Shown here in pieces: positions 6,239 to 8,740 of a stretch of 64,000 nt of DNA (position 1 is its first letter; every line of letters begins with the position of its first letter). The translations under genes and the position numbers were made by a program. Below the pieces are notes generated by a model that was given only the letters and a program-made list of their open reading frames with translations, was not told the origin of the DNA and made no database searches. The stretch covers positions 2,914,001-2,978,000 of the forward strand of contig WWBZ02000082.1 in the NCBI GenBank assembly GCA_011503125.2, read 5' to 3'. This DNA comes from Botryosphaeria dothidea (taxonomy: Eukaryota > Ascomycota > Dothideomycetes > Botryosphaeriales > Botryosphaeriaceae).

Positions 6239-6610
6239 ACTCAACAACCTACCACACTGATAACGGAGGGAATGGCTTTGTTGATTTAATGAATAATGAC
6301 CCGCTTCTTTGATGGTTTCTGATGGATACCTTTGGTTCTTTTTCTCTCAACACTCAGATTGAACTTGTGGGGCAGTAACGTAGTTGGAATGGATACAGGG
6401 AAATTGCATGCTGGTGAGAATCTCATTGGAGGATCGTCTCTTTTCCCATGACTACTTGGCATTTGCATATTACTCCTTTTGATGTCTCCGTGCCCCTCTT
6501 TTGTACAGTGACATTATTCTCGGTACAATCATTCTATCAGTACTTCGCCTGTGACCCGTATGGATTCATATTTAACCTCTTATTTGAAACATCCAGCATC
6601 CAAATACAAC
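6239..6610. other. intergenic, 3' side of P-loop gene and upstream of tRNA pair
   Basis: AT-richer than its surroundings. No gene is seen. It should hold the polyadenylation region of the P-loop gene and the 5' flank of tRNA-Arg(UCU). Confidence 0.5.
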
Positions 6611-6647
6611 GCCTGGTTGGCGCAATTGGCAGCGCACGCCTCTTCTA

Positions 6648-6734
6648 GTTAGCGACATGAGTATACTCCCAGGGTAGGTAGTGCTCTGCATTGCGCCTTG
6701 GTCGAAACGTATCCGTGGAGCTGCCTCATTTGAG
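6648..6734 (+). other. anticodon-loop (37/38) intron of tRNA-Arg(UCU), 87 nt
   Basis: It lies directly after A37 at the site cut by tRNA splicing endonuclease in all eukaryotes. At 87 nt it is long for this class. The 3' boundary is set by the AGGCG half of the anticodon stem, leaving A38 at 6735. Confidence 0.75.
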
Positions 6735-6754
6735 AAGGCGAGGTCGCGGGTTCG

Positions 6755-6805
6755 GTGAGTCTCTTGGTTCAAACTTGAACGGCGTTCACTACTGACATGA
6801 AGCAG
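6755..6805 (+). other. T-loop intron with spliceosomal signals in tRNA-Arg(UCU), 51 nt
   Basis: Begins GTGAGT, has ACTACTGACATG near the 3' end (CTGAC branch-site match 15 nt before the end) and finishes GCAG. Only this GT...AG cut gives the conserved A58 and a 7-nt T loop (TTCGAGT). An internal inverted repeat (GTTCAA/TTGAAC) is also present. Confidence 0.8.
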
Positions 6806-6826
6806 AGTCCCGCACTGGTCATATCC

Positions 6827-6832
6827 TTTTTT
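6827..6832 (+). terminator. Pol III T6 terminator after tRNA-Arg(UCU)
   Basis: Six T residues begin six bases after the discriminator base at 6821, as expected for a RNA polymerase III transcript. Confidence 0.75.
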
Positions 6833-6968
6833 GAGAATGCGAGGAAACTTGTGTTTTCTTCTACATTTTCGCTACTGGTATCGAACATACGTCCATATGT
6901 GGTATTGAAACAACCTTCTCCTTCACCAAACAGGCCGGTTAGCGCAATGGTAGAGCGTACCCCTCCTA

Positions 6969-7006
6969 ATCTCACTCCTTTCTGGTGGTGGTAAGGGTTC
7001 ATGGAA
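6969..7006 (+). other. anticodon-loop (37/38) intron of tRNA-Arg(CCU), 38 nt
   Basis: It follows A37 and ends before A38 at 7007, next to the GGGTA half of the anticodon stem. This is the canonical nuclear tRNA intron position, with ordinary length. Confidence 0.78.
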
Positions 7007-7026
7007 AGGGTAAGGTTGCGGGTTCG

Positions 7027-7081
7027 GTACGTCTTCTCAACTTTCTCATATGCTGAGGATAATACACTAACATGATTCTAG
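7027..7081 (+). other. T-loop intron with spliceosomal signals in tRNA-Arg(CCU), 55 nt
   Basis: Begins GTACGT, contains ACACTAACATG (CTAAC branch site about 12 nt from the end) and finishes TCTAG. Removing it restores T loop TTCGACT and the exact B-box consensus. Confidence 0.8.
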
Positions 7082-7104
7082 ACTCCCGTATCGGTCGATT
7101 TCTC

Positions 7105-7109
7105 TTTTT
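7105..7109 (+). terminator. Pol III T5 terminator after tRNA-Arg(CCU)
   Basis: Five T residues starting eight bases after the discriminator base at 7097. Confidence 0.65.
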
Positions 7110-8740
7110 GTGAAATCTCAATGTCTCTTTCCTTTTGCTTTTTACCAAGGACTTGCAATCTCAAATCGCGGGCACCGACTGCTGTATAGGCATTTCCGGC
7201 GAGCAAGACAACGGCCACGTCACTTTCGAACAATCCAGCAAGCTTGGCCCTCACTATGAATCTCCTACGCATCATACATCCATCTGTCCACCCCAAACAA
7301 CACCCTCGAACACCCTCCGGAATCTCCGAGATGCGCCAGCCGACCCAATTCACTACCGTCTTCTACACTTTCATGTTCGGAATCCACCAGCTTGCCGATG
7401 CTCATATCTCCACAGAAATTCACGCATCATGCTAGGGTCCACCAATCGCCGTTGGTACTGTCATGCTCAAGCACATCGGCTTTGGGACAGTCCATGGCGG
7501 GCCAGTTCCTTAACACGCGTTATGTTGTAAGGGAGGTGGGGCCAGTGGGATGTAGAGAGCCATGTTGACTTTCGAGAGATGCCATTCGGAAAGGCGAGAC
7601 GGAGAAGAGAGGGTGACCTGGTGGATTGGACGTTCTCGGCAAGACGTGTAAGCTGCACCGGTGGTGTCAGCGAGAGCAATGACGGGGTGAGGGAGGGACT
7701 CGGCGCCTGCCACTGAAGCGAAACCTCACGGCGGCAGCGGCAGTCTGGTGGAGTGAAGAGCGTTGCCAGGGAGGTGTCACGCGGCAAAATCCATGGGCAC
7801 TCCCAAGCCGGCTGTTCTGGGGGGATTGGCGATAACGATCACGCCATGTGATTGTGGCGGACGCAACTCCTGCATTGGGTGCTGACAGCGCGCCACTGCT
7901 CTCGCAGGCCGGAAGGAGTTATTCCCAAAGCACGCAAACCTACTCCAAGCACTTGTTGCATTGCTGCCCAGGAAAATTGCCGAAGCGAATACGCTACAGA
8001 TCATGGCCTCGAAGAAGAGCGGGCAACTACGAGGGCGGAGTTGGTGAATGCGGAGAAAAGGACTGGGGAGGAAGATCACACTTGTTCTTGGATTTCAAAC
8101 CTGTTACTCCACACCGGATGTACCTGCACACCTTGCAGGTAAAGCATAATAGGCCAGACTTGGAATACCGCTTCATTTTGATAATCAGGGTCGATCGTGC
8201 CTACAGGCCTCAGTCCCGGCACAGTTGAAGAAGGGCAGTCAAAACCCTACCCTTGGTTAATGGAGGTAGCTGTCAGCCAGCTGCATATAAGACGCTGTCT
8301 TGAACGCTTACCAATTAAGAGTAGTAAGTTCATCGTGGAGGTGTTGCCGTGCGAATTCGGAAATGCCCAGCAGTTGACATCACTTGTTCTTTTCATGGTC
8401 ACCGAAACTTTGTCGAGGGGTCGCAAAAAAGTACATCCACCAAAAATGTAGCTGAAAAGTAGCTTTCCATGAGGAAATCTAAAACATCAACAAGATGCGG
8501 CTTGTGATCAAGGATATCTTGAGACTATACACAGAGAGAAAACATGGTGCGCAAAACAGAGAACCTCCGACAATGCTAGCCCGAAATCCTTATGCCCACG
8601 ATGGGTGCTTCCAACTCCACTTCGATGCTGGCAAAATGCCAAAAACCCCCCCCCCTTAAGCCAGGCATAATATTTACAAGATATGGCGTTGTGACAATGT
8701 AGAAGAGACCTCGCTAGCCATTCAGTTCGTGACAGGCACA
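7110..8740. other. intergenic 1.6 kb, no supported gene
   Basis: Several open frames of 60-131 codons occur, overlapping on both strands, with no recognisable domain. A C9 run lies near 8648. The right-hand part is the 3' side of the BTB gene on the minus strand. Confidence 0.45.

Follow-up and report, generated by a model that had tools for sequence, protein, structure and literature searches.

GT-AG introns in the T and D loops of tRNA genes of Botryosphaeria dothidea: probable spliceosomal introns in RNA polymerase III transcripts

The window analyzed here, a stretch of 64,000 nucleotides from the genome of the plant-pathogenic fungus Botryosphaeria dothidea, contains two adjacent tRNA-Arg genes, with anticodons UCU (6611-6821) and CCU (6933-7097). 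Each of them holds an anticodon-loop intron and, in addition, a GT-AG intron in the T loop at position 57/58. The features of the two genes are as follows:

6611..6647, + strand: tRNA-Arg(UCU) exon 1, with the 5′ halves of the acceptor and anticodon arms, the D arm and the anticodon UCU (ARAGORN and gene model)
6648..6734, + strand: Arg(UCU) anticodon-loop intron of the canonical kind, 87 nt at 37/38 (from ARAGORN after deletion of the T-loop insert)
6735..6754, + strand: tRNA-Arg(UCU) exon 2, with the variable loop between the 3′ half of the anticodon arm and the 5′ half of the T stem (GCGGG), then TTCG (sequence)
6755..6805, + strand: Arg(UCU) T-loop intron at 57/58, 51 nt, with GTGAGT, CTGAC at 6792-6796 and GCAG at 6802-6805 (sequence)
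6766..6776, + strand: GGTTCAAACTT inside the Arg(UCU) T-loop intron, at offset 12, the B-box offset of other families (7/11, shuffle p = 0.57, not significant alone)
6806..6821, + strand: tRNA-Arg(UCU) exon 3, AGT-CCCGC-ACTGGTC-A, with the acceptor 3′ half and A73 (sequence)
6827..6832, + strand: Arg(UCU) T-run of six T, Pol III-type terminator (sequence)
6933..6968, + strand: tRNA-Arg(CCU) exon 1 (gene model)
6969..7006, + strand: Arg(CCU) anticodon-loop intron, 38 nt (placed by hand)
7007..7026, + strand: tRNA-Arg(CCU) exon 2 (gene model)
7027..7081, + strand: Arg(CCU) T-loop intron at 57/58, 55 nt, with GTACGT, CTAAC at 7067-7071 and CTAG (sequence)
7082..7097, + strand: tRNA-Arg(CCU) exon 3 (gene model)
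7105..7109, + strand: Arg(CCU) T-run of five, Pol III-type terminator (sequence)

The anatomy of these genes can be read directly from the sequence. An earlier note on this DNA had described the T arm of the Arg(UCU) gene as split, and this is what we observe, with GCGGG-TTCG and AGT-CCCGC flanking the insert at 6755-6805. The branch-like CTGAC reported there is also present, but it starts 37 nt into the insert and not, as was written, 51 nt later, 51 being the length of the insert. Both T-loop inserts lie between G57 and A58, with the A of the branch motif 10-11 nt before the end of the intron. Because an insert of this kind is found at 57/58 in the neighboring Arg(CCU) gene as well, the Arg(UCU) insert is not attributable to chance. 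As the note had anticipated, a tRNA finder recovers the gene once 6755-6805 is taken out: ARAGORN then calls tRNA-Arg(tct) and places its 87-nt intron at 37/38. Removing the T-loop insert alone from Arg(CCU) yields a Gln(ctg) call with a misplaced 14-nt intron, and removing all introns from the pair yields Arg(tct) and Arg(cct). At its default score and with anticodon introns allowed, ARAGORN reported no tRNA in the unspliced region 6501-7150, and it found neither Arg gene in the raw window; a relaxed threshold produced many spurious calls in both. An Rfam search of the window at the gathering threshold returned no matches, as did a viral-contig scan, and Pfam matches in 3 of 10 window ORFs were irrelevant.

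On some counts the window genes are the weakest cases of those described below, given an acceptor mismatch, paralogues free of a T-loop intron and intronic B boxes that do not reach significance. In the ARAGORN drawing, the acceptor helix of Arg(UCU) contains a C2xU71 mismatch and two G-U pairs. The earlier note had named an intact tRNA-Arg(UCU) elsewhere, combined with silence of this locus and its decay in relatives, as an observation that would speak against it, and half of that combination is seen, since another such gene exists (L038, C1:2915695-2915797, with only a 37/38 intron and no T-loop intron, as read by eye) and the window gene carries its acceptor mismatch. ARAGORN places the L038 intron differently and calls the isotype Thr. 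With L038 present, the window gene is ruled out as the only AGA-decoding gene. Given the mismatch and the existence of L038, disuse of the window Arg(UCU) gene alone is conceivable, and taken singly it may be out of use. Intron-less Arg(CCU) genes also occur elsewhere in the genome (L020, L021). The tandem Arg pair occurs, with the same exons and introns, both on C78 and on C36 (L055, C36:3806150-3807000), and C3 and C12 likewise have tRNA loci in common (L009/L010, L048/L049); haplotypes or assembly duplication would account for both observations.

Pattern searches of the genome, a single 51.7-Mb assembly of 78 contigs, identified at least 13 distinct T-loop introns in 16 gene rows, distributed over seven isoacceptor families [Arg(UCU), Arg(CCU), Ala(AGC), Ala(CGC), Asp(GUC), Pro(AGG) and Pro(CGG)], and at least 10 distinct D-loop introns in 11 gene rows from three families [Ala(AGC), Pro(AGG) and Pro(CGG)]. 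These counts are lower bounds based on the part of the pattern matches that was inspected. In all, 26 gene rows were modelled (22 plus four of Pro(AGG)); three rows, L010 and two of L055, are exact duplicates of others. The locus at C78:2243107 repeats the T intron of the C36 Ala(CGC) gene and stands outside the counts of modelled rows, and L161 lies outside the modelled gene set.

The split-B-box pattern GGTTCGGTNNGTN{25,55}NAGANTCC gave 8 genome matches, against none for the reversed pattern. A looser T-loop pattern gave 35 matches (34 separate places, one overlapping pair being counted once) against 63 in its reversed control. The corresponding figures were 41 against 62 for a pattern selecting D-loop introns (15 loci and a few more inspected), 26 against 30 for one requiring the branch motif (partly inspected), 18 against 46 for another loose pattern (7 of the 18 inspected) and 262 against 162 for an intact B box (100 of the 262 listed). 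Since loose patterns match no more often than their reversed controls, the tRNA identity of each case rests on structure. Among the matches to the looser T-loop pattern, 11 of the 12 distinct inserts flanked by a 5-bp T stem contain the branch motif; of those lacking the stem, 2 of 18 do (Fisher P = 1.5e-5). Around the one stem-bearing exception (C36:1779654), the short stretch inspected offers nothing else that points to a tRNA, and one of the two motif-bearing inserts lacking a full stem belongs to an Asp gene whose T stem has a terminal mismatch.

Once all introns (D, T and anticodon) are removed, ARAGORN calls a tRNA of the expected isotype in 22/22 rows and in 4/4 Pro(AGG) rows, with the expected anticodon in 25 of the 26 (L139m is read as ggg, not CGG), and every modelled row forms a full cloverleaf, that of the window Arg(UCU) with one acceptor mismatch. 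When 22 rows were submitted unspliced, all 15 with a T intron returned nothing, three Ala rows with only a D intron were miscalled and the four others were found.

Several candidates were set aside in the course of these searches. The displayed matches to GG[TC]AGCGCTATAGACTTCTA are not tRNA-Arg genes: they lie in an AT-rich repeat family (L088, L090, L091, L096, L103, L108, L109), RIP-like by eye, that mimics the 5′ half of tRNA-Arg(UCU). The D-loop candidates L126, L133, L134 and L135 contain no tRNA, and some of them resemble coding introns. A Lys(CUU)-like copy without the 3′ half of its T arm (L054, G000:C58:2826308-2826373), which ARAGORN does not call, is probably a decayed tRNA copy.

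Paralogues provide exact intron boundaries. Of seven Asp loci, with exons 97-100% identical, four have the T intron and three lack it. Four Pro(AGG) loci with identical exons carry no extra intron (L138), a D intron only (L128, L129) or both D and T introns (L127), and in Pro(CGG), at an exon identity of 92%, L139 has neither intron and L118 has both. All seven Ala(AGC) loci (six distinct) contain a D intron, and four of them (three distinct) also contain a T intron. Where Asp, Pro and Ala genes carry a T-loop intron, excision of the GT...AG segment gives exactly the form seen in an uninterrupted paralogue. No such paralogue is known for the D loop of Ala(AGC), where the boundary follows from the restored D loop.

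The 23 distinct D- and T-loop introns are all 50-60 nt long, start with GTNNG, a start that is built into most of the search patterns, and end in AG. A branch motif (CTRAY or TTAAY) whose A lies 8-14 nt upstream of the intron's 3′ end is found in 13/13 T and 10/10 D introns; interior shuffles show it in 7%, and the window's GTDNG..AG stretches in 14 of 468. This motif is absent from all but one of the D- and T-loop search patterns, only the T intron of L127 having come from the pattern that requires it; in the introns themselves it is CTAAC-like and its A lies 10-13 nt before the end. Introns in apparent coding sequence of the same genome can look similar, including L140 (51 nt, GTAGGT..CTAAC..GCAG, by eye), L071 (58 nt) and L075 (59 nt), and 11 of 31 candidate coding-intron sites, a crude set obtained with low-power frame-based finders, contain the branch motif. 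L140 (C18:4038180-4038520, minus strand) is in addition a coding-like chance mimic of a split B box, with TTCG|GTAGGT..CTAAC..GCAG|ACCCC. The recurrence of these signals in 13 distinct T introns and 10 distinct D introns rules out a chance GT-AG pair in a single gene. Self-splicing group I and group II introns have a catalytic core of several hundred nucleotides, and the D- and T-loop introns, at 50-60 nt, are too short to belong to either group.

The tRNA splicing endonuclease is an alternative enzyme. Ectopic tRNA introns could be cut by it, as proposed for Cyanidioschyzon merolae, leaving the GT-AG ends and branch motifs as coincidence, and PMC4090602 and PMC9602550 give precedent for a single eukaryotic tRNA having introns in its D, anticodon and T arms. 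The genes described here hold ordinary anticodon-loop introns too. However, the branch motif stands near the 3′ end in 23/23 introns, and no part in endonuclease cutting is known for it. The introns of the D loop and those at 57/58 depart from the canonical endonuclease position 37/38, where the separate anticodon introns lie. A bulge-helix-bulge (BHB) motif has a 4-bp central helix, and such a helix is found at the ends of 0/23 D and T introns, which argues little against the endonuclease because only 2/21 anticodon introns score positive. On balance, cutting by the endonuclease appears quite improbable.

The spliceosomal character that the earlier note had read into a single insert is supported by the 23 distinct introns with spliceosomal anatomy, by exact insert-free paralogues and by conserved exons alongside diverged introns. 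We infer from these sequence features that the D- and T-loop introns are spliced out and that the spliceosome is the enzyme that removes them. The 51-nt insert of the window Arg(UCU) gene would very probably be a U2-type (GT-AG) spliceosomal intron at 57/58, one member of a set of such introns in Pol III transcripts that are served by two splicing systems and, in most genes, by a replacement B box.

Conservation bears on whether these genes are in use. Within families, with the identical copies L010 and L055 left out, exons are 92-100% identical, compared with 67-98% for T introns, 51-69% for D introns and 33-100% for anticodon introns; among the four Asp copies with a T intron, differences affect 0-2 of 72 positions in the exons and 10-18 of 53 in the intron. 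Since the exons are so well preserved while the D and T introns range from 51 to 98% identity, the interrupted genes look functional rather than dead, though gene conversion homogenizing the exons could also produce such likeness. The interrupted genes might instead be pseudogenes that gained introns or inserts while silent, leaving intact copies to do the work. Candidates for that work exist, namely a further Arg(UCU) gene and uninterrupted genes for Asp, Pro(AGG), Pro(CGG) and Arg(CCU), and both the C2xU71 mismatch of the window Arg(UCU) and a T-stem mismatch in one Asp copy (L123) would suit decay. Against this, exons hold at 92-100% identity as introns diverge, T-runs and B-box-like sequences are retained, the D loop is interrupted in 7/7 of the Ala(AGC) loci found, with no uninterrupted one seen, and a compensatory T-stem change (G50-C64 versus C50-G64) spans the Ala(AGC) T intron. 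Together, these observations make the pseudogene reading very improbable.

Four of the Ala(AGC) loci were found through the T loop alone, using the split-B-box pattern, and the D intron is present in 4/4 of them; the D-loop pattern behind the other loci selects for a D intron. A genome search for the uninterrupted Ala(AGC) D-loop form with up to two mismatches returned two Pro genes and the 3′ junction of an Ala intron at C69. Allowing one mismatch to the conventional Ala(AGC) form gave 15 genome matches against 16 in the control, and none of the three inspected (L136, L137, L141) was a tRNA. The AGC anticodon, as inosine, reads GCU and GCC, and no Ala(AGC) gene without a D intron was found, so removal of this intron would be essential, unless a gene was missed among 1497 tRNA candidates, of which 63 were scored. 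Copies with a T intron have the T stem CGGGG/CCCCG and those without it CCGGG/CCCGG; this double compensatory change, which spans the T intron, counts as one event. In the 3′ trailer, an exact GGTTCAATTCC B box is present in 4/4 rows with a T intron and in 0/3 rows without. The Ala(AGC) trailers (L009, L010, L011, L014, L058, L124, L125) also contain a small hairpin-like CTGG..CC element.

The T intron splits the B box, a promoter element. Scored as matches out of 11 to GGTTCGANTCC, with N counted as a match, a B-box-like sequence (at least 8/11) is found in 10 of 13 T introns, starting at intron position 11-15. Shuffling gives p < 0.05 in 8 of the 13 and a combined p = 2e-9, a value obtained from paralogous rows that are not independent; the same statistic is 0.80 for D introns and 0.99 for anticodon introns. 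Both window T introns are exceptions, the CCU intron scoring 5/11 (p = 1.0) and the UCU intron reaching only the 7/11 given above. Downstream, a run of at least four T within 45 nt is observed in 25 of 26 rows, compared with 10% of random window positions, and one of at least five T in 23 of 26, compared with 3%.

These signals also bear on the polymerase. Spliceosomes normally act on Pol II transcripts, and both the A and the B box are interrupted in four Ala(AGC) loci (L009, L010, L011, L014), in Pro(CGG) L118 and in Pro(AGG) L127, so that Pol II might be thought to transcribe the interrupted genes. The near-universal T-runs and the putative replacement B boxes in introns or trailers are, on the other hand, Pol III features, and we regard transcription by Pol II as unlikely.

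The course of events suggested by this anatomy would begin with transcription of the interrupted gene by Pol III, with the intron, and in Ala(AGC) also the 3′ trailer, supplying TFIIIC with a replacement B box in most genes. The anticodon-loop intron would be left to the tRNA endonuclease and ligase, and the spliceosome would excise the intron in the T loop and, in other genes, that in the D loop, so that two splicing systems would work on one precursor. Removal of the D- and T-loop introns would be expected to precede end processing, as folding of the elbow has to come first. As the T-loop introns appear to bring along the promoter element that they disrupt, an intron could enter the B box without silencing the gene. 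The spliceosome would probably be essential for cytosolic tRNA in this fungus, since every Ala(AGC) gene found needs its D loop restored and several genes would undergo three removals by two unrelated systems.

Spliceosomal introns in structural RNA genes occur in the nuclear rDNA of ascomycetes (Pezizomycotina); the tRNA introns share their spliceosomal nature but differ in that the host RNA there is rRNA, made by RNA polymerase I. A further parallel is the U6 snRNA gene of Schizosaccharomyces, whose mRNA-type intron is reported, according to PMC10484740, to contain a B-box match, combining, as here, a Pol III gene, a spliceosomal intron and a B-box match within it. This gene differs from the tRNA genes in encoding an snRNA with one intron and no second splicing system acting on the same RNA. 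Among tRNAs, PMC4090602 and PMC9602550 describe ectopic introns at 12/13 and 53/54 of C. merolae Ile(UAU), for which a BHB is thought critical for the endonuclease, and nucleomorph introns of 3-24 nt in Guillardia, whose mechanism is given as unknown. In contrast to both, the introns reported here are 50-60 nt long and have GT, a branch site and AG. Non-canonical archaeal tRNA introns (56/57 in Pyrobaculum islandicum), as covered in PMC4090602, are similar in a T-loop position close to 57/58 and in the presence of several introns per gene, and differ in their BHB motif and archaeal endonuclease. The earlier note knew of no precedent, which stands in part: the open-access literature searched yielded no spliceosomal intron in a tRNA, and Schizosaccharomyces U6 is a partial Pol III precedent. 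A Pol III gene with a spliceosomal intron is thus known; for a tRNA, the literature searched named none.

Splicing of tRNA and splicing of mRNA are taught as separate systems. If working tRNA genes have spliceosomal introns, tRNA supply would depend on the spliceosome, and Pol III precursors could be routed to it. The Pro(AGG) genes, with zero, one or two extra introns and identical exons, constitute a natural series for studying intron gain and promoter rescue. Interrupted genes of this kind escape standard tRNA finders, as with ARAGORN in the raw window, and PMC8450103 describes the search of tRNAscan-SE 2.0 for non-canonical introns as belonging to its archaeal mode; other fungi may hold such genes unseen.
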